45,532 nucleotides of DNA from Candidatus Ozemibacteraceae bacterium (GTDB lineage Bacteria; Muiribacteriota; Ozemobacteria; Ozemobacterales; Ozemobacteraceae). Positions 1-27,454 of the stretch are shown in pieces. Position numbers and translations under genes: made by a program. Location: assembly GCA_937998695.1 (NCBI GenBank), contig CALLCO010000153.1:1-45532 (forward strand), written 5' to 3'. Numbering within the stretch: the first letter of the stretch is position 1; every line of letters starts with the position of its first letter. A model generated the notes under the pieces. The model did no database searches. It was not told the DNA's origin and worked only from the letters and a program-made list of their open reading frames with translations.

Positions 1-7
1 GCGTGAG

Positions 8-116
8 GTCCGGCCCCCCCCTCGAGTAAGCGAGGATTGAAACAATACCGCGCCGGGCGTCGGCGAGGATTGCCTCCTCGGTCCGGCCCCCCCCTCGAGT
101 AAGCGAGGATTGAAAC
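8..116 (+). CRISPR. Distal end of a CRISPR array (2 repeats, 1 spacer)
   Basis: Two identical 36-nt repeats lie at 8-43 and 81-116 and flank a 37-nt spacer at 44-80. Each repeat carries a run of eight C, then a CCTCG-AGTAAG-CGAGG hairpin, and ends in ATTGAAAC, the 8-nt crRNA 5' handle usual for type I and III systems. That handle puts crRNA transcription on the plus strand, so the leader and most of the array should lie left of the window and this is the trailing end. No third repeat follows; 117-141 holds only a vaguely similar C-rich stretch. No cas gene is present here, so the subtype cannot be named. The spacer itself contains ten bases identical to part of the repeat (63-72). Confidence 0.93.
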
Positions 117-403
117 AGGATTTCGAGGGCCGACCCCCCGAACTCCTCTAATCGCCCGATCCCCTAAATGACGGTCGGTGATGGGCGCAGCCCCGCTCCG
201 AGGTGCCCGCCTTGCCCAGCCCCAGACCCGCCGCTGAATAAAGTTCTCGGGCAGAAAGTCCCCGCCGTGTGGTCCTTGAGGGCGGCGGCAGTCGGTTTCT
301 CAGGAGGCCCACAAGACCCTTCCCGCGCAAATGGCCCGATTTGGGTAAACCTCACAGATTGGCCGGATAACGGCCTCAGAACTATCAAGCCAGGGAGGGA
401 GTC
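117..403. other. Intergenic stretch between CRISPR array and small ORF
   Basis: I see no convincing gene here. An open frame at 168-449 reads as proline- and glycine-rich shadow sequence with no ribosome site. A short GGCCG-gataa-CGGCC hairpin sits at 361-375, just upstream of the small ORF. No clear sigma70 promoter is visible. Confidence 0.5.
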
Positions 404-517
404 ATGGACGAGTGGCTCGGAAGCGGGAGTCTCGATCTCTTGGAAATGATCCTGGGTTTTCTGCAGTGGATCGTTCTGGTCGATCTGGTCCACCTGTGGG
501 TGCGGTTCGGCTTTTGA
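404..517 (+). CDS. Small single-pass membrane peptide (37 aa), unknown
   Basis: This ORF encodes 37 residues beginning MDEWLGSGSLDLLEM and ending LWVRFGF. It is preceded by a strong ribosome site (GGGAGGGAG two bases before ATG), and an intrinsic terminator starts 10 bases after its stop. Residues of about 13-34 are hydrophobic enough for one membrane-spanning helix. A short hydrophobic peptide with its own terminator resembles the layout of type I toxin peptides or small membrane regulators, but I recognise no family. It lies between the CRISPR array and the fused RNA polymerase gene. The alternative is that the transcript is a non-coding RNA and the ORF is fortuitous. Confidence 0.5.
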   Translation: MDEWLGSGSLDLLEMILGFLQWIVLVDLVHLWVRFGF

Positions 518-526
518 TCGGCGCCT

Positions 527-564
527 GGGGCCGGCGGTCGCTCGCCGCCGCGCCCCTTTTTTTT
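527..564 (+). terminator. Rho-independent terminator upstream of the RNAP gene
   Basis: GGGGC-CGGCGG pairs with CCGCCG-CGCCCC (one small bulge) around a short loop, and eight T follow at 557-564. It should end the transcript of the 37-codon ORF. Since the polymerase gene starts only 47 bases later, it either isolates that gene or attenuates read-through into it. A TTGGTTAGAAT sequence at 575-585, resembling an extended -10, could start transcription just after it. Confidence 0.8.
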
Positions 565-611
565 CTCCCTGCAGTTGGTTAGAATGGCCCTACCGAGAGG
601 AGGCCAGGCCA

Positions 612-3600
612 ATGGGGTTGATCAACACCGAGGACCAGAAAGCGACATTCTTGCGGGTCATTCAAAAGGTCTGGCAATCCTTTTTGAACGAAACTTGCCC
701 CGCCTCCTTGCGAACACAGTGGCAAGGTGTGCAGGTGACCTTCGTTGACACCCCTGGCGGCGGAGCTTTCGCCCAGATCACCATTGCCCAGGCGAAGAAG
801 AAATGCCTCCAGGTGCGCCTTCCTTGGCCGGTCGAGGGCGCCTTCGTGCGGCGATCCCGCCGACACGGCGGGATCATCCGGTTGGTTCCCCGACTGGTCC
901 TCGAACCCCATCCAGACGACCTGCGACAGTTTTCGCCCGCCTTCGACCCCCTCGACCTGGCCTACTATCATGTGGTGACCTGGCCGTGGCGGTTGGGCCA
1001 GGTGTTTGACCGCTGGCTGCGGCGGCCGGTGCGGCACTTGGCGGTTGACGGCAAGCTCAGCTCATCGCCCGAGGTGTGGCAGAGGTTCCTTGACCGGAGG
1101 GCTTTCCCGACCACCAACCGTTCCAAGCTCCTCATTCCTGAGATTGGCTTCGGCCATCTCTTCGGGTGGTGCAGCCTCCTGGATGAAACCAATCCATTGG
1201 CCCGACTCACCCAGATCTATACCGTTTTCCGGTCCAGGATCATCGATTGGGGAAGGCCCACGGCCGACCACCCGGAGGGCGAGGCGTGCTGGAAGCGGCT
1301 GCGGGCCGTGTCGCCGCTGCCGGAGGTGCGGGATATCCATCCCTCCTACCGGGGACGGCTCTGCCCGATCGAAAGCCCCGAGTCTTCCCTGGTTGGTCTG
1401 ACCCTGCAAAAAGCCGTCGGGGCAACCATCGAGCCCGATACCGGTCGCTTGTCCCCTGCCGATGATCCGCGCCCCGAAACCGTCTGCTCCATCGGAACCC
1501 TCCAGGTCCCCTTCCTCAGCCATAATCACAGCCCCCGGCTGATGATGGGCGCCAAGAACCTGAAGCAGGCCTTGCCGCCAGTTCAGGCCGAGACCCCCGA
1601 CATCGCTACTGGCTGGGAGCGTGAAGTGGCTTGCCTGCTGACACGCGAGACCGGAGCCGAGCCCATCATTCGTGCGCCCCATGCCGGGCGCATCGAGATC
1701 GACGCGGCCAGCAGCCTTCTACGCATTGTCGGAACAGGCAACGGCATTACGACCACCATCCCCCTCTGGGAAGAGCCTGGAACGCCCAAACCCGTGGCGG
1801 CGTTCGGTCATCTGCTGGTGGCCTCGGGCCAGGACGTGGCTGAGGGGGATCCCCTGCTGATGAAGGCCGGGTTTCGACCTGCTCCGGCCGGCGGAGCATC
1901 CTCGCCAGAGCCGATGTTGGCTCTCGGCCGGCACCTGACCGTCCTCTACCTCCCCTGGTTCGGGTGGAATTTCGAAGACGCCATCGTGGCCCATGAAAGG
2001 GTCCGGGAGGCCCTGGCCTGTCGATTGGCCGTGCCGCTCACCTGGGAATGCCCTGCCCACGCGGCAGCCGGCTACGATGCGCGGCAGCTGCTCGGCCGGG
2101 AGTTCCGGGCGGGCCAGCCCCTGGTGCCGAACATCAAGGCCTCCCAGATGCCATTTTGGGTGACGACCGCCCGGGTGATCAAGGTCTATACCCCAGTACG
2201 GGGGCCGGTCCGCCTGGAGAAGATCCGACAGCCTGACGGTTCCCTGGCGACACGGCAGGTTCCCACCTTACGATTCCGCGTCCTTCTCGAGACCGTTCAG
2301 CCGCTGGGGGTGGGCGACAAGCTGATGGGTCGCTATGGCAACAAAGGGGTGGTTTCGCGATTCCTGCCGGAGGATCAACTGCCGTCCCTGAAGGTCAAAG
2401 ATAAGGACTTGGGTAAGCCCGACCTCATCCTGAATCCGATGGGGGTGTTGTCGCGCAAGAACCCCGGACAGATTCTCGAAACCCAGGCAGGACTGGTCAA
2501 ACTGCTCGATGAGCGGCGATTCACGGAGTTGGCCCATCTGGGCCGGCCCTTCGCCTGTCTCGAAAAGGGCAAGGGGAATGCGGACCTGGCGCTCCAGATT
2601 TTGCGCACCCTCGAAGAGCTGGGGGCGGAACGTGGGGAGGTGGAGGTTATCTTCCCCAAGAACGGTCATTCGGTGCGGGCAGTGGCGGGCCGGCAGTACA
2701 TCGTGCGCCTCGATCATTTGCCCCAGGCCAAGCTGGCCATTCGGGGACGACCGCCAGCCCCGGCTCTGGATGAGGGGCTCACCGGAGGTCGGTCCCCCCA
2801 GACCGGGCAACCGCTGCCTGGCATCCGCTCGCATGGGGTGAAGGACGGGCGTGACGGCGGCCAGCGGCTCGGGGAAATGGAAATCTGGGCGTTGCTGGCC
2901 CACGGGCTGACGGAGAATCTGGCGGAGATCCTGGAAAAGCGAAGCCAACCCCCGTCCCCCCCCTCCCACGAGGCGGCCAGGCCGTCTGCGCAGACCCCGG
3001 TGCCAACCGGTCGCGACCGCTCCTGGCGGACCTTCCAAGCGTTGCTGCGGGCTCTCGATCTTGGGATCGACGACGATGGCCAGAGGCTCTTTCGTCTCGC
3101 CGAGCCCACGGCGGGAGCCGCCACCGATGAAGAAGGCTGGCAGCTGATCTGGGTGAACGTCGGCCCATTGGCCGGCCGGGTTCGACATCCTCTCGATGGG
3201 AAACCGCTCGCGGTGGTGCGCCGCTTGCCCGATGAGTTCCTGCCCCGGTCTCCGCGTCGCGAGAAGCCGTGGCTGGCCTGCCAGTATGACGAGGTGGCTC
3301 AGTCCGTACAAGCCCTGTCTGCCCCGGATCGCCCCGGGCGGAACCAGGCGGATGATCCGGCGCGAACCGAGGCGGCGATCGCGGCGGTGCAGGGACTGAT
3401 CGACCGGTTGTTCGGCTGCACCCGCGGGAACGATCGGCCGGTGGCCCTGGCCCGGCGAGCGCCCCGCCGCCATCCGGACAGCGCCGAACGACCTGGCCTG
3501 CCCGACCGCCTGAAGGCGCTGACCCTGCTTGGCATGCTGGACCGCAAGGCTGGATTCCTGCGACGCTATCTGATCGGCCGCCGGGTCGATCTGTCGGGAC

Positions 3601-5504
3601 GGGCCGTGATCGTGCCCGATCCGCGGTTGCGGCCCGATCAGGTGACCTTGCCCGGGCTGGCTCGTCGGCCCCTCGAACGCGCCGTGAAGCGCGCCCGGGC
3701 TGGGCAGCCACCGGGCTGGGCCCTGCTCAATCGCAATCCGACCTTGCATCGCTACAACCTGCTGGCCTGCCAGGTGAAGCAGTGGCGGCCCGATGCGGTC
3801 ATCGGCCTCCCTCCTTTGCTGTGCGGGATGTTCGGCGCCGATTTCGACGGCGACACCATGGCTTTCCATATTCCCTTTTCCCGGGAAGCCGAGGTCGAGG
3901 CGGCCGGGCAGGCCTCGTTCGGCGCGCACGCCTTCTCGGTGGCCACGGGCAAGCCGCTGGCCCACTTCGTCCAGGATGTGAAACTGGGGTGGTGGGTGCT
4001 GACGAAAAGCTCGATTCCAGCAGGATGTGAGGCGGCTCGCGCCGGTCTGATCAAGGCTTTGCAGGCATTCCCTGAAGTGCGTCGCTTCGACCCCGAAACC
4101 GACCTGGCGTCGCTCAAGAACCTGGAGGAGGCCATTACCGACCTGACTCGACGTCTGCCCCGCGAAAAACGGGCGCGATTCTTGTGGAAAGTGAGTCGAC
4201 GGGCGTTCGAGGCGGCCACCCTTGCCGGTGTCTCGGTCGGGGTGGCTGACCTGCTCGGATTGCAACCTTCCGAGGAGGAAATCGGGAGACTGCATCTGGA
4301 TTGGCGGCATGACGCGGATGGCGCTTGCCGACTTCTGGAGAAGTTCCTCCAGGAAAGGGCCAAATCCTGGCGAGAGGCACGGGGCAGGCCTGGGTTCTGG
4401 GACATTCCCTTGAGCGGGGCGCGCGACGGGAAGTTTTCCGATACCCGCCAACTGGTCGCGGCCGGTGGCGCGGTGCCGTGTCTGTTCGATGCCCTGGAAA
4501 GGGAGATGCGGCGCCGTCGGTTCTCTGCCCTGCCGGGAGGAAGCGGACGGTTTCAAGCGATGTTCGATGCCCTGGCGGAGCCGCCGCCCGTGCTGGGGAG
4601 ATTTCTGGCGGGCCTTGGCCCCCACGAATTCTGGCAGGCCACCAGGGATGGCCGGCGAGGGATGGCGGAAAAAAAACTGGGCACCCCTCCGGCGGGGTAC
4701 TTCACCCGATTGCTGGCCGAGGCGGCATTTCCGTGGCGGGTGAGCCGGTGCGAAGATTGCGGGAGCACCGAAGGATTGCGTCTTTCGGCCGAGTCGATCA
4801 GGGTTGATGGTGGCCTTACCCCCGAACTCTCGAGGCTGGTCGATCAGCTGGCCATCGGCCGACCAATGTTGCCGCAGGGGGACGGGTGGCGGTCACCCCT
4901 GTATTGTGCGTTGCCTGAGCAGGGTCATCCTTTCGAAATCTGTCGAACCTGCCTGGGGGACGACCCCAGCACCCGTTCCCCCTTCCGCCCCGGAGAATGG
5001 ATCGGCCTCATCGCTGCCGAATCGGTGGGCGAGCGGGGGACCCAGGAGGCTATGAAGCAGTTCCACAAAGGGGCGGGAGGGAAGGGGCAGGCCGCCGGGT
5101 GGCCGCCCCCTGGATTGCCGGCGGGCCTGGCAGCGTGGGGGGAACCGGGAGCCCGGGTGATCACGCTTTTCCGCCGGGCCTACAAGCTGTCGGATTTCCC
5201 GGTGTTGCTGGCGTTGCTCTACCATCCGGACGGTCCGTTCCAGGAAGTCTACAAGGACGTGCGGCCGGTGCATTTCGAGATCCTGGCCCGGACCCGGCGC
5301 GTTGGCAAGAAGATTCGCGGGTTGATCAAGGCGGGCCAGGCGACCGGGCTGGCGGGAGGGGCATTGTCGGCGCTCGGTTTCGTCCGGCTCGCGGAAACGC
5401 TGGCCGGCTTGCTGGCTTCGCCGCCGGCAGGGACCGTCTTCCACCCCAAGACCTGGGTGATGCGGGGTCGGAGGCCCGAAGTATTGGTTGGGGACGAATC
5501 ATGA
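612..5504 (+). CDS. Compact single-chain RNA polymerase, fused RpoB-RpoC-like
   Basis: The 1,630-residue protein carries beta hallmarks and then beta-prime hallmarks in one chain. Beta part: GRLCPIESPE (248-257), LYLPWFGWNFEDAI (445-458), GDKLMGRYGNKG (568-579, with the two conserved active-site lysines) and GGQRLGEMEIWAL (749-761). Beta-prime part: GRRVDLSGRAVIV (989-1001), LLNRNPTLHR (1038-1047), the catalytic metal loop GADFDGD (1075-1081), a CxxC...CxxC zinc site near 1425-1455 and the bridge-helix/trigger-loop signature GEWIGLIAAESVGERGTQ near 1460-1477. A normal beta plus beta-prime pair is over 2,500 residues, so the lobes, the beta-prime N-terminal zinc ribbon and the C-terminal jaw/clamp are reduced or missing. 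The start follows AGAGGAGG by nine bases. The gene overlaps the next by ATGA. The catalytic residues argue for an active enzyme. It is too divergent to be the housekeeping polymerase, which must lie elsewhere. A phage or plasmid origin is possible. Confidence 0.92.
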   Translation: MGLINTEDQKATFLRVIQKVWQSFLNETCPASLRTQWQGVQVTFVDTPGGGAFAQITIAQAKKKCLQVRLPWPVEGAFVRRSRRHGGIIRLVPRLVLEPHPDDLRQFSPAFDPLDLAYYHVVTWPWRLGQVFDRWLRRPVRHLAVDGKLSSSPEVWQRFLDRRAFPTTNRSKLLIPEIGFGHLFGWCSLLDETNPLARLTQIYTVFRSRIIDWGRPTADHPEGEACWKRLRAVSPLPEVRDIHPSYRGRLCPIESPESSLVGLTLQKAVGATIEPDTGRLSPADDPRPETVCSIGTLQVPFLSHNHSPRLMMGAKNLKQALPPVQAETPDIATGWEREVACLLTRETGAEPIIRAPHAGRIEIDAASSLLRIVGTGNGITTTIPLWEEPGTPKPVAAFGHLLVASGQDVAEGDPLLMKAGFRPAPAGGASSPEPMLALGRHLTVLYLPWFGWNFEDAIVAHERVREALACRLAVPLTWECPAHAAAGYDARQLLGREFRAGQPLVPNIKASQMPFWVTTARVIKVYTPVRGPVRLEKIRQPDGSLATRQVPTLRFRVLLETVQPLGVGDKLMGRYGNKGVVSRFLPEDQLPSLKVKDKDLGKPDLILNPMGVLSRKNPGQILETQAGLVKLLDERRFTELAHLGRPFACLEKGKGNADLALQILRTLEELGAERGEVEVIFPKNGHSVRAVAGRQYIVRLDHLPQAKLAIRGRPPAPALDEGLTGGRSPQTGQPLPGIRSHGVKDGRDGGQRLGEMEIWALLAHGLTENLAEILEKRSQPPSPPSHEAARPSAQTPVPTGRDRSWRTFQALLRALDLGIDDDGQRLFRLAEPTAGAATDEEGWQLIWVNVGPLAGRVRHPLDGKPLAVVRRLPDEFLPRSPRREKPWLACQYDEVAQSVQALSAPDRPGRNQADDPARTEAAIAAVQGLIDRLFGCTRGNDRPVALARRAPRRHPDSAERPGLPDRLKALTLLGMLDRKAGFLRRYLIGRRVDLSGRAVIVPDPRLRPDQVTLPGLARRPLERAVKRARAGQPPGWALLNRNPTLHRYNLLACQVKQWRPDAVIGLPPLLCGMFGADFDGDTMAFHIPFSREAEVEAAGQASFGAHAFSVATGKPLAHFVQDVKLGWWVLTKSSIPAGCEAARAGLIKALQAFPEVRRFDPETDLASLKNLEEAITDLTRRLPREKRARFLWKVSRRAFEAATLAGVSVGVADLLGLQPSEEEIGRLHLDWRHDADGACRLLEKFLQERAKSWREARGRPGFWDIPLSGARDGKFSDTRQLVAAGGAVPCLFDALEREMRRRRFSALPGGSGRFQAMFDALAEPPPVLGRFLAGLGPHEFWQATRDGRRGMAEKKLGTPPAGYFTRLLAEAAFPWRVSRCEDCGSTEGLRLSAESIRVDGGLTPELSRLVDQLAIGRPMLPQGDGWRSPLYCALPEQGHPFEICRTCLGDDPSTRSPFRPGEWIGLIAAESVGERGTQEAMKQFHKGAGGKGQAAGWPPPGLPAGLAAWGEPGARVITLFRRAYKLSDFPVLLALLYHPDGPFQEVYKDVRPVHFEILARTRRVGKKIRGLIKAGQATGLAGGALSALGFVRLAETLAGLLASPPAGTVFHPKTWVMRGRRPEVLVGDES

Positions 5505-8500
5505 CCCCAGGGGGGGGAAGGCTTCTCCCCAAGAGGGAGAGCGAGGCCCACAAAGTTCCGCTCAAGACGAAACTGGGCCGACTCGCCGGGCTGCTGCGTG
5601 GGACTGTTAAAGTCTGCCAGAGACTGGAACAGCTGCGGCGACTGTCACCCCCCGGGCGTCAGACTGCCGGGGGTGGGTGGGGGAGGGCCCGCGACCAGAA
5701 CGGGGCCGATATTCCTTGCGTCGATGACGGGGAAGGCAGCGGCGGATCGGGGCGAGGGATGTACGATCACCCGGGGCCGCCGGCGGCAGGCGTTGTCCTT
5801 CCCCAAGAGAGCATCTGGATCATGCCGGATGGCCTGGGCGGATTCCAGGCACAGTGGAACGACAAGGTGCCCGAAGTCCTCGACCCTTCCTGCTATGTGG
5901 AGGAAGACCGGTACAAGATTGACGAATTGCTCAGGCAACGGCAGGTTCTGGTCTGGGGGCGGGACATGCTCTTGCAGGCGGTCAATGTCTGGTGCCGGTT
6001 GCAGACTCCTTTCCTGCTGGCTCTGCTCCGGCAAGGGAAGACCGGGTTGTGCCGTCGTCGCATGGTTACGCTGCGATTGTTGGGCAGGGCATGGCAAGCT
6101 CAGTATGAGCGGGGGCGCGCTCCCACCCTGCCAGATGGTGAGGAATGGTCTGGCGAGCCGTTCCGCCTTGACGAAAGCCCTGCCGAATCGGGCTCGCCCG
6201 GCGGGCCGAACGACCGAATTTCCTCTGACTCCTTCTACCAGCTGTCCTTTACCTTACTGGATCGGAAGGGGCGTTTTGGCCACGTCCCCGTCCATCTGAG
6301 CCCCGATGTGACCTGGCCGGTCGGTCAGTTGTGTGAAAAAGGGAAGCATCTGGCCAACGTGGAAGAGCCGGTCCCTTCCCTGGCCGAGCTCAAGACGTTG
6401 TGGCAGGCGGCCCTGGCGGAAGGGTTTTCCGAACGACATCCGCGGCGGTTGTATCTGCAATTCATGCGGCCCCGGCTGCTGGAAGCCGGGTGGCCGGAGG
6501 CCGAACTCCTGACCTGGGAACAGCGGCCGGCAGGAAACGTGCCCATCCCACATGGGTTCATCGATAAGTTGAAAAATTGGTGCGGGGGAGCGGGGGCTGA
6601 CGTGGCTGAGTCTCACCTGCCGATGCCCTCTTCCCATCGCAAGCACGCCCATGGCAGAACATTTGACGTGGAGGCCCATGCCTCAGAAGAGGGTGGGAGC
6701 CCTGCGACCGTGGTGGGAGTTCCCGCCATCCACCTTGAACCCGAAAGGCGAGTTGCCATGAAATGGACGCTTATCCTCGTCACTCCCCGATTTGAGCACC
6801 TGACCAAACTGCTTCGCCCTGGTCTGCCCCCTGAGATCGAGGGGGTTCCCATCGCTATGGAGAAGGTGGAAACCCCGGAGGAACTGGCCGCTGCCTTGGC
6901 AGGAACGGAGGGAACCACGATCTGGGTGTTCGATTGGGAGCGCGGCCAGGCGCATCATCACCTGCTCGAACGCTTCCAGGAAATCGTGGCGGAAAGAGGG
7001 ACGGCGCCGCGTCCAGGGGCCGGCGCTTCCCCGGCTGGGCAGGACGGCACGGCCGGCCTTTGGCGCGGCGATCCGATTCCCCCTCTGGCGGTGATCGTGA
7101 TGGGGAAACCCGGAGAAAGCGCCGTGGTGAAAGCCTGGCGGGTGGGCTATCCCCGCCTGAAGCACATGTTTTTCGAGCGGATGCTGCAAAACCCCTTGAC
7201 CTTCAAAATGCCCGAACGGTGGACCCACCTGTTCATCGAAGAGCGCCAACTGCGCGAGCGCGTCCATCGTCTGGAAACCCGGCCGGATCTCGTTGCGATC
7301 ACGGGCGAAGCGCTGACGGAAGAAGCCGAGCACGGGTTCGTCACTCTCGGCCATGGCCGGATGGCCGGGTTCGTGGGCGATCTGCGCCGACTGGTGGCCG
7401 CGATGCGCAATGATTGGATCAACGACTGGCAGCCCCCGGCCATGGATATGGCCGACCGGCTGCAGCAGTTCCTGAAGAGCGACAACCCCGATTGGAGCGA
7501 GGTGTTCAAGATCGACCATCGTTCGTCGGGGAAGCGTGATTCCCGCGCCGGAACCAGCCTGATCCCCCTGCCCTCGCCGCCACCAGGTTTCAAACCGCGC
7601 CATCTGTTGATCGAGGGCCCTTCAGGGGCAGGCAAAACCCTGGTCGCCAGGTTGCTGAAAGACCTGCTGGCGTTGCCGGAAGGAGCGCCCCTCTGCCCGG
7701 TGAATGCCAGCGGTTTGTCGCCGACCCTGCTCGAGAATGAGCTGTTCGGGACGATGAAAGGGCAGGCGACCGAAATCAAAGCCAACATCGGGCTGGCGAT
7801 GAGTGCCATCGGTGGCATCCTGTTCTTCGACGAGATCGGCGACGTGCCGTTGGAACTGCAACCACGGCTGCTCACCTTCCTCGATGATCTTCGCGTGATG
7901 CCGGGAGGTATGCACGAACCTTCCCCCCCGTTGCCGATGTATGTGGTGGCAGCCACCAATCGCCACCTCGAGGAGCTGATCGCCCAGGGGCGATTCCGGC
8001 ATGACCTGTACCATCGCTTCCGCCTTCGGATCAAGATCCCTGGGATGGAGGAGCGGAAAGAGGACATTCCCGAGTTGATCGATTTCGTTCTGGGTCGCCC
8101 GGAAGTCAACTTCACCCTGCAAGAAACCCCTTATGGCCGGCGGATTACCCACGTGACCCCTGAATTCGTGACGCGGATGCAGGCGATGGATTATTCGCAG
8201 GGACATTTCCGCCAGTTCGAGACCCTGCTCATCGAAGCGGTGGCCAAGGCGGCCGAGGAATATTCCCCGGTGCTGGATGTCACGCATCTGGGCCCCGCAT
8301 CGGCCAAGGGCGAGACGCAAAATCCGGTCGCGGCGTCCCCGAACGAACCCTTGACCGTCGCTCTGGACCTTCGGGTTGGGACGAAGCGGTTCTCCCTGCC
8401 GCTTTCTTCGTCACTTCCGGAACAGTTCGAGGACGCTGATGGCCGGTCGATTGTTCGGGATCGGCGACCCTTCGCCCGCCGTCATCCATCGGAGCCGCCA

Positions 8501-9121
8501 CCAGAGCAGACTCCTTCTGTGCTCCCGGGGAAGCGGGACTCGGAGGCCTCGAAAGCCGGTCGCCGGCATTCTGAGCGGCAGATGAGCGACCGTTCGAGGT
8601 CGCCGGGCCCCAAAGAGTCTTCTGGGAAGCATCGCAAGGCTGTCCCCCGGCAAGGTGCCGGGGCGAAGGGGAAGAAGACGGATCGGGAGCAGCCCGGGAT
8701 GAGTGCTCGAGAGAGCAGGAAACCCCCAGTCGTTCGCCCACGGAAACAAGCAGAGCGGGCCAGGCCGGGAGGACCACGGAAGGAAACGGCGGTAGCCCGG
8801 GCGACGGCGGACTCCGAATTCTTCGCGTTCACCGAGGCTCAGTGGCAAGCTCTCGCGCCGCTGTTGCCCAAGCGTGAGGGGCGGGGCCATTCGGAGGCCG
8901 ACAATCGTCGAACCCTGGCGGCCATTTTCTGGAAGCTGCGCAGCGGGCGCGGCTGGAAAGCTTTGCCGGCCCGCTATGGGCATTTCTTGAAGCCGTATCG
9001 GGAGTTCTGCACGTGGCGGCCCCGGGAGTGGCAAGCCATCCGAGCGACCTTTCTGCGATCACTTGCACCGGAAGAGCGCAAGAGGTGGGAACGGTGCCTG
9101 CCTACCAGGGCGGGGCGGTGA
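5501..9121 (+). CDS. AAA+ sigma54-activator-like ATPase with transposase-type HTH tail
   Basis: The start ATG overlaps the polymerase stop (ATGA), so translation is probably coupled; product 1,206 aa. Residues 1-419 match no family I know. From M420 (a possible second start behind AAAGGCGAG) comes an alpha/beta region of about 140 residues that looks receiver-like. The AAA+ core has Walker A GPSGAGKT (about 704-711), Walker B GGILFFDEIGD (about 770-780), sensor AATN (about 817-820) and arginine-finger segment GRFRHDLYHR, all typical of sigma54 enhancer-binding ATPases. The GAFTGA loop that contacts sigma54 is absent: ELFGTMKGQATEIKANIG stands in its place. A basic, proline-rich linker (about 950-1100) leads to a C-terminal region (about 1104-1206) with TEAQWQALAPLLP, RRTLAAIFWKLRSGRGWKAL and ARYG, resembling the N-terminal HTH (DUF4096) of IS5-type transposases. 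I infer that it remodels or recruits the adjacent fused polymerase at specific DNA sites. Confidence 0.85.
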   Translation: MTPGGGRLLPKRESEAHKVPLKTKLGRLAGLLRGTVKVCQRLEQLRRLSPPGRQTAGGGWGRARDQNGADIPCVDDGEGSGGSGRGMYDHPGPPAAGVVLPQESIWIMPDGLGGFQAQWNDKVPEVLDPSCYVEEDRYKIDELLRQRQVLVWGRDMLLQAVNVWCRLQTPFLLALLRQGKTGLCRRRMVTLRLLGRAWQAQYERGRAPTLPDGEEWSGEPFRLDESPAESGSPGGPNDRISSDSFYQLSFTLLDRKGRFGHVPVHLSPDVTWPVGQLCEKGKHLANVEEPVPSLAELKTLWQAALAEGFSERHPRRLYLQFMRPRLLEAGWPEAELLTWEQRPAGNVPIPHGFIDKLKNWCGGAGADVAESHLPMPSSHRKHAHGRTFDVEAHASEEGGSPATVVGVPAIHLEPERRVAMKWTLILVTPRFEHLTKLLRPGLPPEIEGVPIAMEKVETPEELAAALAGTEGTTIWVFDWERGQAHHHLLERFQEIVAERGTAPRPGAGASPAGQDGTAGLWRGDPIPPLAVIVMGKPGESAVVKAWRVGYPRLKHMFFERMLQNPLTFKMPERWTHLFIEERQLRERVHRLETRPDLVAITGEALTEEAEHGFVTLGHGRMAGFVGDLRRLVAAMRNDWINDWQPPAMDMADRLQQFLKSDNPDWSEVFKIDHRSSGKRDSRAGTSLIPLPSPPPGFKPRHLLIEGPSGAGKTLVARLLKDLLALPEGAPLCPVNASGLSPTLLENELFGTMKGQATEIKANIGLAMSAIGGILFFDEIGDVPLELQPRLLTFLDDLRVMPGGMHEPSPPLPMYVVAATNRHLEELIAQGRFRHDLYHRFRLRIKIPGMEERKEDIPELIDFVLGRPEVNFTLQETPYGRRITHVTPEFVTRMQAMDYSQGHFRQFETLLIEAVAKAAEEYSPVLDVTHLGPASAKGETQNPVAASPNEPLTVALDLRVGTKRFSLPLSSSLPEQFEDADGRSIVRDRRPFARRHPSEPPPEQTPSVLPGKRDSEASKAGRRHSERQMSDRSRSPGPKESSGKHRKAVPRQGAGAKGKKTDREQPGMSARESRKPPVVRPRKQAERARPGGPRKETAVARATADSEFFAFTEAQWQALAPLLPKREGRGHSEADNRRTLAAIFWKLRSGRGWKALPARYGHFLKPYREFCTWRPREWQAIRATFLRSLAPEERKRWERCLPTRAGR

Positions 9122-9284
9122 CCCGTATCGGGGGAGGCGCATCAGGGGCTGGGATCCCTTTACTTACCTTCCCTTCCCCACCGCATCGCAGAAACAAATC
9201 TTTCCCCGGGCCTGGGGTCACGGTGACTCTCCAGTGGCGTCGGCTGCCCGTCGAGGTGGCCGCTCCGCTGGAGGAACCGACCCG

Positions 9285-10295
9285 ATGGCTGAAGCCCGCA
9301 CCCGGATTTTCACCTTCACGGACGATTTCGTCTTCAAGTACATCTTCGGGCGTGAGCATCAAGAGCGACTGTTGATGCGGCTGCTGAATGCCCTGCTGCA
9401 TCGCGAGGGCCGTGGCCAGATCGTCGACCTGGAGATTCTCAACCCCTTCAACCCCAAGGAAACCGCCACGGCTAAAGCCTCGGTGGTCGATGTGAAGGCT
9501 CGCGATGGGCATGGCCGCCGATACCTCATCGAAGTGCAGGTGAAGAGTCGCCCCGATCAGGTGGCGCGGTCCTTGTTCTACCTGGCCCGGCTGTTCGCTG
9601 ACCAGCTGGGCGACGGCGAGGGCTATGAAGATCTCTGCCCCGCCACGGCCATCACGCTGACCGGGTTCCGCCTGTTTCGCCACCATCACCGGGTGCAGAG
9701 CCGGTTTCGCCTGCTCGAGGCGGAGCAGGGCTTTGAACTGTCAGATCTGCTTGAAGTGCACTACATCGAGCTGCCGAAGGTGGCTGACTTTCTTGTGCGG
9801 CACCACCCGCCGTCTCACGCATCGGGCTGGCCTCCCGATGACCCGCATGCCCTGCCGTGGGGCACCTTGACCCGCTTCGAGAAGTGGCTCTATACTCTTC
9901 GCTACGGGAAGCGTCTGGCGGGAAGCGGCCCGGTCCCACCCGCTCTTACCCAGGAGGAAGGCATCGCCATGGCCATCGATGAACTGCAGAAGATCAACGC
10001 TGATCGCGAACTACGGCAATTGCTCGAGCAGCAAGAGAAAGAACGCCGTGAACTCAACTCTTCCCGGTTCAACCCACGCAAGGCCTACCAGGTCGGGAAG
10101 CGCGAAGGCCTGCAACAAGGCCTGCAACAAGGCCTGCAGCAAGGTTTGCAGCAAGGTCTGCAACAAGGTCTGCAACAAGGTTTGGCCCAGATCATTCGCC
10201 AACTGGTTGCCTCAGGCATGCCCCCAGTCGAAGTCGCGGAGCGTCTGAGCCTCCCTTTGGACAAGGTTCTGGGGTCTCTCGAGTCGCCACCTTGA
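9285..10295 (+). CDS. Rpn-like PD-(D/E)XK nuclease / transposase family protein
   Basis: The 336-residue protein opens with FTFTDDFVFKYIFG and has the Rpn-type nuclease core: D69 in SVVDVKARD and E83-V-Q85 in YLIEVQVKS replace the textbook D...(E)xK. Rpn-family proteins are DNA endonucleases linked to recombination-promoting activity and are common near mobile DNA. The start at 9285 follows GGAGGA; an in-frame extension upstream to 9063 overlaps the AAA+ gene and looks non-native. The C-terminal part has KINADRELRQLLEQQEKERREL (given here as key segments around residues 240-262, probably helical), then a 6-fold GLQQ repeat and a final helical segment, a tail typical of this family. It lies 163 bases after the AAA+ gene on the same strand and may share its transcript, although accidental proximity is equally possible. 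Confidence 0.85.
   Translation: MAEARTRIFTFTDDFVFKYIFGREHQERLLMRLLNALLHREGRGQIVDLEILNPFNPKETATAKASVVDVKARDGHGRRYLIEVQVKSRPDQVARSLFYLARLFADQLGDGEGYEDLCPATAITLTGFRLFRHHHRVQSRFRLLEAEQGFELSDLLEVHYIELPKVADFLVRHHPPSHASGWPPDDPHALPWGTLTRFEKWLYTLRYGKRLAGSGPVPPALTQEEGIAMAIDELQKINADRELRQLLEQQEKERRELNSSRFNPRKAYQVGKREGLQQGLQQGLQQGLQQGLQQGLQQGLAQIIRQLVASGMPPVEVAERLSLPLDKVLGSLESPP
10107..10178 (+). repeat. Six 12-bp tandem repeats encoding GLQQ
   Basis: The unit ggcctgcaacaa occurs six times with third-position variation and encodes (GLQQ)6 followed by GLAQ. Because the unit is 12 bp, gain or loss of copies would change protein length without shifting the frame. Confidence 0.95.
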
Positions 10296-10597: not shown

Positions 10598-11386
10598 TCA
10601 ATCGATCAATCGCGATCGTGACAGGTCGTAGGCCAATTCGAGGGTGGGGTGGAGCTCGCGGGGAAGGGTGGCCCGGGCGATGGCGAGACAGGTGGCGGCG
10701 AGGGAGCGGGGCAGTCCGAAGCGGGCTTCGGCGAGGGCGCCGGTCACGCAGGCGATGGTATCACTGTCACCGCCCAGCGAGATGGCCAGGCGGAGGGCGG
10801 CTTCGAAGCCGTCGGCCGTCAAAGCGGCCCAGACCGCCTGAGGGACGCTCCCGGCGCAGGTGGCATCGAACGGCCGGCGCCGAACTTCCTGCGGGTCGAT
10901 CGCGAACTCATATCCGGTCACTAGGGTTAGGCGGCGAGCAACTGCCGCGGGGGCCATCCCCTGTCGCAGGAGGATGATGCCCGCCACCACGGCGCGGGCT
11001 CCCGCGACGGCATCGGGGTGCTGGTGGGAGACGAGGGTCGCGGTGTCGGCCTCCCGCAGGGCCGCATCGAAATCATCGATCAGCCAGCCGATCGGAGCGG
11101 CCCGCATGGCGGAGCCGTTGCCGCAACTGTCGTTGGCGGGTGCCCCGTCCTGGCTGGCCCACCGCGCGAACCTCGGCCCGAACCCAATGTCAGGGGACAA
11201 GCGCCAGAACCGGCGGTAGGACGTGGCGTAGTCGCGGTTGCCAGTCAAGGCTTCCAGGGTGGCCAGGGTCATCACCGTGTCGTCGGTGGCTTGGCACCCC
11301 TGGTCTCCCAGCGGTACCGCCGGATCATGCGTGTTGCGCCACTCGTACTTCGACCCGCAGGTGTCTCCGATGATGGCTCCGAACAT
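10598..11386 (-). CDS. ADP-ribosylglycohydrolase family protein
   Basis: The 262-residue product starts MFGAIIGDTCGSKYEW, has the metal-binding ATDDTVMT segment near residue 31, and carries LGGDSDTIACVTGAL near its C-terminus, the second dinuclear Mg site of the DraG/ARH family. These enzymes remove ADP-ribose from proteins or nucleic acids. I chose the start at 11386 because it follows GGAGAAACGACG and opens directly on the conserved GAIIGD motif; a 20-codon upstream extension (to 11446) has no ribosome site. The gene stands alone. Its upstream flank is a repeat-rich region with no clear promoter. Some members act with toxin or defence ADP-ribosyltransferases, but none is visible beside it. 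Confidence 0.9.
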   Translation of the reverse strand: MFGAIIGDTCGSKYEWRNTHDPAVPLGDQGCQATDDTVMTLATLEALTGNRDYATSYRRFWRLSPDIGFGPRFARWASQDGAPANDSCGNGSAMRAAPIGWLIDDFDAALREADTATLVSHQHPDAVAGARAVVAGIILLRQGMAPAAVARRLTLVTGYEFAIDPQEVRRRPFDATCAGSVPQAVWAALTADGFEAALRLAISLGGDSDTIACVTGALAEARFGLPRSLAATCLAIARATLPRELHPTLELAYDLSRSRLID

Positions 11387-18457: not shown

Positions 18458-21400
18458 TCAAGATACCACATCGAGGGCCTGGATGACCAGCACCGAGGCG
18501 TCGTCCGCCCAGGGCACGGGATCGGAAAACCGTCGGACGGCCGCGAAGATGGCCAGCCCGGGATCGCCCCCTCCCTCGAGGGCGGTGGTGACGGCGGCGG
18601 CGAATCTCGTGTAGCCGAAGGGGGTGTTGGACCGATCGGTGGCTTCCACCAGGCCGTCGGTGTAGAACACGATGGCGGCAGGGCCCTCGGGGGTTCCCAG
18701 GGTGAGATCAACCGCCTGGGGCAGGCTGCGGCGGGCGAACCCCAGCGGATAGCTGGTCGGGGTTTCCAGCAGGGTGGCGGGCTGCCCAGGCCGCCAGACG
18801 AGGGGAAACGATTGTCCGGCATTGGCGATCCGCAGGTGACCCGAAGCGGGCGTGAAGATGCCCAGCACGCAGGTCATGCCCAGGGCCCGCTCGAGCACCT
18901 CGCGGAACAGGCGGTTGATCCCGTCGAGGATCAGCTCGGGCTGATCGGGGAACCGCGGCCCCAGCTCGCGTACCGCCTCCTTGGCCATGGCGGTGACCAG
19001 GGCCGAGCCGATGCCGTGGCCGGTGACGTCCCCCAGTACGACCAGCACCCGCCCGTCGGGCAGGTCGCAGTGGTCGAGAAAATCGCCCCCCGTGGCCTGG
19101 GTCATCTGGTTGTGAGCGACGATGCGGAATCGTCCACAGCGGCGCTCGGTCGGGGGCATCAACCGGGCCTGCACGGCCGCGGCCAGCTGCATCTCGGCGA
19201 GGTGGGCCATGGCGCGATTGAACGCGGCGAACAGCCGGCCCAGTTCGTCGGCCCGGTCGGTGGCCAGGCGTAGCTCGAACCGGCCTTCCCGCATGGCCTG
19301 CACGCCGTTCGCCAGGTCACGCACCGGGGGCAGCAGGCGCGAGAGCGTGACCAGGGTCAGCAGGAGGCAGAAAGCCAGGGCGAGCGCCATCCGCTGGAAG
19401 GCGGCCGCGACTACCTCCCCTAAGGCGGCCCGCAGGCGGTCCAGCGGGGTGATCGCCAGCAGGACGGAGACGGGCAAGCGTCGCCCGGTCCGCCCCACGA
19501 CGTCGAAGGCTTCGCTGCCGATCTGGGCTTCGGTGTGCAAGACGGCGTCGGGTTGCAGGCGGATCTTCTCCTGGAGCGGCCGCCAGAGCACTCCATCCTC
19601 GAGGGTCGGGTAGGAATACACCATGTCTCTGGGCTGGGGCAGAGCAACCAAACCGGAGCCGGCGGTGGCCACCTGCCGGCCGCAGGCTTCCTGCAAAAAG
19701 TCGGCGACGATCGTGCCATACTCGAAGACGAGCAGCAGCAGCCCATCTCCCCGGCGGTCGGCCTGCGGCATGACCCCGAAGAACAGGTAGACGTTTCCGA
19801 TGACCCCGCTGATTTCGCGGAGCTGGTTCAACGCGGCGATTCCCAGCTGGGCGAAATCGCCCAGCTCGTCTTGGAACATTCCCGATACCACCAGTCCCGC
19901 CGCTGGCGTCGGATTGGGAGGGAAGCCTCGCCGGAGGTTGTAGGCATTGACCGCCTCCCGACTCAGCCACTCCAGGAGCTTGCGCAGGTGCGTCTTCTTG
20001 CCGGCGCGGGGAATAGACGGGAACCGCTCTTGCCAGGGACGAGGGTCACGGATCATGTGCCAATCGCGGAGCGTCGGCTGCCGGCCGCGCGCGACCAGCA
20101 GCCGATACTGCCGTTCGCGTTCCGGCGGCGGGAGACGCAGCAGGCGGATGGCGTCGCCGGGGTATTTGTCGTCGAGGGACTGCCAGGCCACCACCTGGGA
20201 TCCGGATGAGACGTAATAATATTGATCGAGCTGGCCGGCCTCTAGGGCATGGGCCAGGTGCTGGACGGTCGAGGCGGGGTCGAAGCCCACCGGCTCGAAC
20301 TCCCCGACCCAGCGGCGCAGGCGCAGCTCGGTGTCACGCAGATGGCCCTCGAACCCGGCCTCGAGGCGGTCGAGCCGGCTGGCCGCTCGCTCGCGACTCG
20401 TGGCGGTGATTTCCTCTCTCGCTTCTTCGGTGTGGAGCCACGCCAGGGCCCCTGCCACCCCGAGGGGAAAACCGAAGCCCAGCAGCAACAACCCTCCCAG
20501 GCGGGCCGGCAGAGACCAGCCCCGGATGGCTGCTGCCTCTGGCCGGGGGTCGTCGGCCGGGACCGCCGTTCTCCGCCGGCTGCGGGCCAGCCCGCTCAGG
20601 AGCAACCCCAGGTGCCCCGCCGCCAAAAGCCACAGCCAGGGTCGGTGGGGAAGAGGGCGGGGCAAGATGCCGATCAATTCCGCGCCCCGGCCGCGTCGGG
20701 AGAGGGCCAGCCAGCCTCCGGCCTCCGCCAGTCCCGAGGGCTGCCGGGCCAGGGCCTCCCGGCAGGCCTGGAAGACGTCGGTGGCGAGACCGGCCGTCAG
20801 GCTGATCGGGCCCCGATCCGAGACCAGAGCCAGGTAAAGGGACCGGGGGCGCCAGGTGGGGAAGAGGATTTCCTCGTGCAACCCCTCATCTTCAGGCAAG
20901 CAGGCCCCTGCCATCAACACGAGCAGACCGGCGACGGCGCCGGGCTCCTCTCCGGGGCGCCAGGAGAAGAAGCCGTGATCCGGCCAGCGGTCCCGTTGTC
21001 CAGGGAAGAACCGAAGCTGGTCGACCTGACCCTGCATCATGTCGATTGCCGTTCGGGGGTGGTCGAGGAGCGTGCCCAACCGGTCGATCGTGCCTTGGTC
21101 GAGGTCGGTGGCAGCAGTGGCGGGACGGCGCAGGAGGTCGAACAGGAGTTCGGCGCCTTCTTTTTCGGCGGGTGAAGCAGGAGTGAGCAGAAGGCCCTGC
21201 CGATCGAACAAGAAGATTCGCAGGGCCTGCGGGGGAAATTCCGCCTCGCAGGCCGCTACGGCGCTGGCCAACCGGGGAAGGGGGAGAGCGCTCCCCAGGA
21301 ATCGCCGCTGGATCTCAGGCAAGCGCCGATGCAAGAGCCGGGACGGCCAAGATTCGGCGATGATGCGGTCTAGAGAGGCTCCCGCCTGTTCGAGCTGGCG

Positions 21401-27370: not shown

Positions 27371-27454
27371 TGCCCGGAGGGGGACTTGAACCCCCACGCG
27401 CGTGGCGCATACGCCCCTCAAACGTATGTGTCTACCAAATTCCACCATCCGGGC
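27371..27454 (-). tRNA. tRNA-Leu (anticodon GAG)
   Basis: The 84-nt minus-strand sequence starts GCCCGGATGGTGGAATTTGG and closes with TCCGGGC plus discriminator A, giving a complete 7-bp acceptor stem. The anticodon arm reads TACGT-TTGAGGG-GCGTA with GAG at the anticodon position, the long variable arm (GCCACGCGCGTGG region) marks a class II tRNA, and the T loop is GTTCAAGTC. CCA is not encoded. A good promoter lies upstream and a terminator downstream. The gene adjoins an integrase stub and probably served as an attachment site. Confidence 0.96.

Follow-up and report, generated by a model that had tools for sequence, protein, structure and literature searches.

The general description of bacteria gives them a single core RNA polymerase (RNAP). 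Why would a bacterium carry a further RNAP of cellular type, fused into a single chain, directly after a CRISPR array, and what would start it? The locus belongs to Candidatus Ozemibacteraceae bacterium (assembly GCA_937998695.1; 4.5 Mb in 324 contigs, completeness 91.8%) and lies on contig CALLCO010000153.1. Positions 1–45,532 of the forward strand constitute the whole stretch of DNA that was analyzed, referred to as the window. The features on which the argument depends are:

8–43, + strand: CRISPR repeat of 36 nt, ending in GGATTGAAAC (repeat search)
81–116, + strand: second, identical CRISPR repeat after a 37-nt spacer; no further repeat was found between it and the RNAP gene (repeat search)
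534–551, + strand: terminator-like hairpin with a T run, 50–60 bases before the RNAP start (consensus match)
612–5504, + strand: fused, shortened β/β′ RNAP of 1,630 aa, with β at about residues 1–800 and β′ at about 850–1630
3834–3854, + strand: GADFDGD, motif within the RNAP translation
5028–5066, + strand: GERGTQEAMKQFH, motif within the RNAP translation
5501–6757, + strand: X, the N-terminal part of the partner ORF, a proposed divergent sigma-54-like factor (trimmed hhalign, position)
6758–8560, + strand: AAA+ ATPase region of the NtrC type, which includes an N-terminal domain and continues the frame of X
8831–9025, + strand: piece of a DUF4096 transposase (IS4/5 type), joined in frame near the end of the partner ORF, which ends at 9121

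The RNAP frame starts with an ATG, preceded by AGGAGG at 598–603, and runs through 1,630 codons with no internal stops. A homologue in another genome of the same genus (G012) is 52% identical over 1,538 aligned codons and its frame stays open; the differences between the two at codon positions 1, 2 and 3 amount to 0.38, 0.33 and 0.56. The ORF is therefore not a chance frame. Pfam matches comprise Rpb2_6 (4.8e-24), Rpb1_2 (2.3e-18), Rpb1_5 (5.8e-13) and Rpb2_3 (6.3e-7), together with Rpb2_7 (1.8e-7), which at 31.9 bits falls slightly below its cut-off of 32.1. The catalytic motifs of β are followed by those of β′, the order of a multisubunit-type core. Among them are GADFDGD, which we take to be the catalytic metal-binding motif, and GERGTQEAMKQFH, presumably the trigger-loop segment. 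The usual NADFDGD reads GADFDGD in both the window RNAP and its G012 homologue; both chains retain the DFDGD aspartates, two β lysine motifs and the trigger-loop histidine, and the roles assigned to these residues are our assumption. A predicted model of residues 184–1383 (mean pLDDT 56.7, pTM 0.45) is weak in the β′ half and does not by itself demonstrate a pair of complete barrels around one active-site cleft. Foldseek matched this model to 778 chains at E ≤ 0.001, and the 50 matches listed are all RNAP entries, aligned mainly over the β half with TM-scores of 0.22–0.34 and rmsd above 12.

Separate rpoB and rpoC frames are present on another contig (C4) of the same genome, so the fused chain is a second polymerase and its identification as the housekeeping enzyme was rejected. 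The NCBIfam rpoB models give it 187 bits against a cut-off of 896 and 170 against 801, and the rpoC model gives 148 against 963.5; the genome's own RpoB scores 1,591–1,609 on the rpoB models. The chain is also shortened. The DQTNPLA-type motif is preceded by 190 residues, whereas 558 precede it in the genome's own RpoB, and the β′ half contains no CxxC before GRRVD, while a later CRTC is kept; the housekeeping RpoC has a CxxC at residue 75. Part of the β N-terminal region and the first β′ zinc site, domain names that we supply from general knowledge, thus appear to be absent. Changed residues in DETNPLARLTQIYTVFRSRI suggest resistance to rifampicin, on the residue roles that we assume for this segment.

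In a β tree with long branches, odd-composition warnings and one row that covers 11% of the columns, the fused polymerases of the window, of G012 and of two Poribacteria contigs form one clade (100/99), within which one Poribacteria chain (contig C922) joins the Riflebacteria pair with 84/64. Riflebacteria is the phylum name that we assume for the window genome and G012. In the β tree, the housekeeping chains from these two genomes end in branches of 0.021 and 0.027, the accessory ones in branches of 1.15 and 1.09. A β′ tree, likewise with long branches and composition warnings, which omits the second Poribacteria chain (contig C739) because it has no DFDGD segment, separates the window, G012 and C922 chains from housekeeping and phage chains (96/96). 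The original prediction was of a compact, accessory, single-chain polymerase with intact active-site motifs. Its coordinates and all of its quoted motifs were right, the fused chain is much shorter than the RpoB and RpoC pair, and the alternative it had named, a genome without other rpoB and rpoC genes, was checked and does not apply. The profile comparison it proposed recovered the Pfam Rpb1 and Rpb2 families at scores far below the NCBIfam housekeeping cut-offs, and the proposed phylogeny placed the accessory chains apart from the housekeeping ones. It overlooked the CRISPR array upstream and the partner ORF downstream.

The RNAP stop codon overlaps the ATG of this partner ORF (ATGA, 5501–5504), which encodes 1,206 aa: X at the N-terminus, an NtrC-type AAA+ domain (3.9e-31) and, near the end, the DUF4096 piece (1.1e-14). 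In G012, X and the AAA+ protein are encoded in separate overlapping frames. The G012 AAA+ frame ends before the end of the domain, near the contig start, and the window AAA+ frame runs into the transposase piece; the AAA+ genes of both Riflebacteria have damaged or altered ends. A profile of the three AAA+ proteins (window, G012 and Poribacteria) matches solved NtrC-family activators, and the three share Walker-type motifs and FRxDLYxRFR, while GAFTGA is replaced in all three aligned proteins; these motifs are read with the meanings that we presume for them. PADLOC matches them best to RtcR, in an alignment confined to the AAA+ part (1.3e-34), and Pfam lists no CARF family for them. Behind the DUF4096 piece (frame 8831–9121), an ORF of the PD-(D/E)XK transposase family occupies positions 9063–10295 and bears repeated glutamine-glycine-leucine units near its end. 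Further along, the window contains tRNA-Gly (acc) at 19204–19298 and tRNA-Leu (gag) at 27371–27454, both listed on the – strand.

The nature of X is clearest in Poribacteria genome G039. On contig C922 (L110), the terminal part of a fused polymerase is followed by an X of 358 codons and next by an AAA+ gene, which starts (ATG at 4114) within the end of X (4123). The gene order RNAP, X, AAA+ is thereby shown in two lineages. The contig begins after the β lysine motifs; its polymerase carries NADFDGD and GERGTQEAMRAFHG, keeps DFDGD and the trigger-loop histidine, and has two early CxxC motifs. The Poribacteria X matches Sigma54_DBD (PF04552) at 3.3e-14 with 53.4 bits (cut-off 22.8) and the RpoN of 5ui5 at 1e-9. 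Among the three families listed for it up to E 10, with filters that drop most matches above about 0.1, the activator-interacting and core-binding Pfam models are absent. The same genome contains a second fused polymerase on contig C739 (L030 6642–11729, +), which has β motifs and a β′ tail with a trigger loop but not the GRRVD, PTLHR and DFDGD motifs. Two receiver-AAA+ genes and a gene for a subtilisin-like protease are close to it, and the 308-codon ORF that follows it has no sigma-54 match. Neither CRISPR repeats nor cas genes were seen on the Poribacteria contig of 13.3 kb (the other is 7.5 kb). A related observation comes from genome G041, where a single 2,246-codon frame (L108 11859–18596, +) combines, by eye, an alpha-like N-terminal part with β and β′, keeps NADFDGD and has an altered trigger-loop segment. 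An ECF-sigma-like ORF (10809–11369, –) lies upstream of it, and another rpoB-like frame is found on C235.

For the X proteins of the window and G012, hmmscan and untrimmed hhalign gave no significant sigma-54 match, and neither did hmmsearch with 162 ORF decoys and 2,000 shuffled sequences as controls. In the reverse search the best rpoN (E 2.1) ranks behind a decoy ORF (0.55). Trimmed hhalign of the two proteins against 29 rpoN proteins scored 26.0, at a long helix, versus 19.0 for the best of 100 column shuffles, a lenient control because column shuffles also break helix periodicity. The margin shrinks to 22.7 versus 22.1 when the Poribacteria X is added to the template, and in global mode 46 of the 100 shuffles score as well. 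A low-confidence model of X (mean pLDDT 50.5) shows a hairpin, a long helix, helices, a hairpin and helices, an order that we take to resemble RpoN; no fold match was obtained for it at E ≤ 0.001. The position of the window X between RNAP and AAA+ was also counted in favor of this identity. The putative sigma-54-like identity of X is thus statistically significant in Poribacteria only, and the window X is likely to be sigma-54-derived. An ordinary rpoN is present on contig C142 of the window genome. Three scans for sigma-54-type –24/–12 sites returned 5, 6 and 12 matches against shuffle means of 2.2, 6.8 and 15.9, which is not in excess.

The window begins inside a CRISPR array, and the RNAP gene starts 495 bp after it. 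Between them, a short frame (404–517, +) encodes a 37-residue peptide, hydrophobic by eye, with no match among the G012 frames of at least 50 codons. The G012 RNAP (L009 2632–7467, –) also lies downstream of an array, here of 17 repeats, in the same orientation as in the window and 1,966 bp apart. Beyond the 17-repeat array follow Cas1 (1.1e-75), a TPR protein whose primase domain is of the TOTE type (5.3e-33; PADLOC PrimPol 3.7e-58), a TPR/DUF7017 protein and a 21-repeat array. On the other strand there are then an SMC-like gene, a HerA-like gene, Cas10/Cmr2, Cmr3 and RAMP genes. The RNAP of G012 accordingly shares one contig with Cas1, CRISPR arrays, type III-B genes and a primase-polymerase of the CAPP type. 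The SMC-like gene (SMC/RecF-like) and the HerA-like gene after it adjoin the cmr genes (L031 5435–8952, +), and four 54-nt tandem units (L009 12501–12716) lie within a 457-codon ORF, without Pfam match, between Cas1 and the array.

In the window genome, a primase-polymerase and Cas1 (69% and 67% identical to those of G012) are located on contig C12. An array with an almost identical repeat forms the end of C12, and C12 and the window have the repeat type in common. C12 may run into the window, but contig C98 has the same repeat core and overlaps too. C118 (L109), at its end, and C98 (L153), at the end of its reversed sequence, each overlap the start of C12 (L052) by 21 bases, a hint that the primase-polymerase and Cas1 stretch may occur twice in this genome. 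CRISPR linkage is seen in both members of the genus that carry the RNAP, that is, in two genomes of one genus. Among 39 genomes of the phylum, the primase-polymerase has a match in 16, the Cas10 palm in 18 (15 of them over the cut-off) and the RNAP, at E ≤ 1e-40, in two, the window genome and G012; the RNAP is therefore an optional neighbor of the CRISPR locus. In the third genome of the genus the RNAP search gave housekeeping matches only, and a primase-polymerase match is present. A scan of the genome contig collection with two peptide patterns returned two loci. Another search covered 84 genomes around that of Poribacteria; with the C739 paralogue, which has no DFDGD, as query and an E limit of 1e-60, it would miss genes like that of C922.

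Sigma-70-type sites precede two of the arrays. The C12 leader contains TTGACG-17-TAAAAT (one found, shuffle mean 0.5) and the leader of the second G012 array TTGACA-17-TAGATT (one found, shuffle mean 0.3); each has 10 of 12 matches and lies 85 bases before the first repeat. No sigma-70-type promoter was found near the first G012 array. The host polymerase thus probably reads at least the C12 array and the second G012 array, and the accessory RNAP is probably not their reader. Terminator-like sites in window positions 1–700, counted on both strands, number three against a shuffle mean of 0.8. Since hairpins with T runs precede both RNAP genes, the RNAP operon is probably its own transcription unit; the G012 sites are not above the shuffle mean.

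A plasmid or phage origin was considered and rejected. With query P0001, none of 65 matching plasmid records and none of 50 matching phage records reached 80% query coverage in one place. With query P0009, this coverage occurred in five of 69 matching plasmid records and none of 45 phage records; the five are 28–34% identical and one of them is annotated rpoC/rpoB. One scan of viral contigs yielded six phage polymerases, all with split genes, a second returned nothing, and a third kept 80 of 124 loci, with 23–35% identity. The gene may be mobile, as the original prediction had considered probable; transposase-family pieces lie downstream of the RNAP.

The explanation that we favor, at roughly even chances, is a second, cellular-type, single-chain RNAP in an operon with its own initiation apparatus, formed by a divergent sigma-54-like X and an NtrC-type AAA+ ATPase. 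RNAP, X and AAA+ would act together as a dedicated, activator-gated transcription machine. The AAA+ protein would respond to the state of the cell and, by analogy with sigma-54 systems, spend ATP to remodel the complex of polymerase and X, which could then fire at a small set of dedicated promoters, possibly even once a virus has seized the host polymerase. The location of the module at a type III-B/CAPP CRISPR locus in two Riflebacteria suggests that there it would be defence-linked and signal-gated. That the window X and the Poribacteria X are proteins of one kind is our inference, as are the joint action, activity, promoters, sensing and defence role. The original prediction had proposed an own template or promoter; own promoter specificity gains indirect support from the activator-type AAA+ domain and the sigma-54-like gene of the Poribacteria relative. 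A bolder version is tentative and rather unlikely: a CRISPR-linked cellular RNAP, first of its kind, in which the single-chain core, sigma-54-derived factor and AAA+ activator form a complete orthogonal machine wired into the type III locus, with sigma-54 activation rebuilt without region I and GAFTGA.

The CRISPR setting could instead be incidental, with an independent, perhaps horizontally moving polymerase module merely adjoining the locus in a defence-rich region. The transposase-family ORFs directly downstream, the 13.3-kb Poribacteria contig on which no CRISPR was seen, the rarity of the RNAP relative to the primase-polymerase and Cas10, and the terminator-like sites between array and RNAP are all consistent with such a module. 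It is nevertheless unlikely, as place and orientation relative to the array are the same in both genus members although their RNAPs are only 52% identical. Transcription of the arrays by the accessory RNAP, which would provide guide RNA even with the host polymerase shut off, is suggested by its position beside an array in two genomes and is improbable given the sigma-70-type promoters in two leaders (none at the first G012 array).

A role in spacer acquisition, in which the RNAP makes nucleic acid for the Cas1/primase-polymerase machinery found beyond the same array in G012, is very improbable: of the 16 phylum genomes in which the primase-polymerase has a match, 14 have no RNAP at the threshold used, and the partner genes resemble initiation factors. 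Least probable of all is a chain that no longer makes RNA and serves as a binding or regulatory protein, the role suggested for the Beggiatoaceae alternate β′ proteins (PMC4679880). The GADFDGD replacement in the window and G012 and the loss of the DFDGD segment in C739 would fit that role, but the DFDGD aspartates, β lysine motifs and trigger-loop histidine persist in the two Riflebacteria, as do DFDGD and the histidine in C922.

The pieces of the module belong to known families; their combination and the CRISPR setting appear to be new. A literature search, with most subscription journals and bioRxiv outside its scope, found no description of such an RNAP-X-AAA+ module. If correct, a second polymerase encoded in the chromosome together with start-up proteins of its own would offer a minimal natural enzyme for the study of sigma-54 activation and its evolution, as well as a compact tool for orthogonal transcription. 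Should the link to CRISPR prove functional, the polymerase would also be a new means of countering viruses that shut down transcription in the host.

The window RNAP shares the β and β′ core motifs, in the same order, with housekeeping RpoB and RpoC, but is one chain with a shorter N-terminal part and no early β′ CxxC. The multisubunit RNAPs of jumbo phages are likewise extra cellular-type enzymes beyond the housekeeping pair; however, their β′ and β are separate ORFs in the six contigs examined, identity in the best segments is 21–25%, and they form a clade apart from the accessory fused chains in both trees. The Beggiatoaceae alternate β′ proteins, as described in PMC4679880, are also additional large subunits of RNAP that are encoded next to signalling genes; they comprise β′ only and lie beside sensor kinases. 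In CAPP-containing type III CRISPR loci, as presented in PMC8211822, a TPR-primase-polymerase stands beside Cas1, arrays and type III genes as in G012; here an RNAP module follows the array, whereas the text of that paper names 'RNA polymerase' once, in a reference title. Compared with sigma-54 (RpoN) and its NtrC-type enhancer-binding proteins, GAFTGA is not kept in the three AAA+ proteins and the X proteins have no match to the activator-interacting or core-binding models. Nonetheless, the window module contains an AAA+ ATPase of the same type, and the Poribacteria module resembles sigma-54 systems in that the protein encoded between RNAP and AAA+ has the DNA-binding domain of sigma-54.
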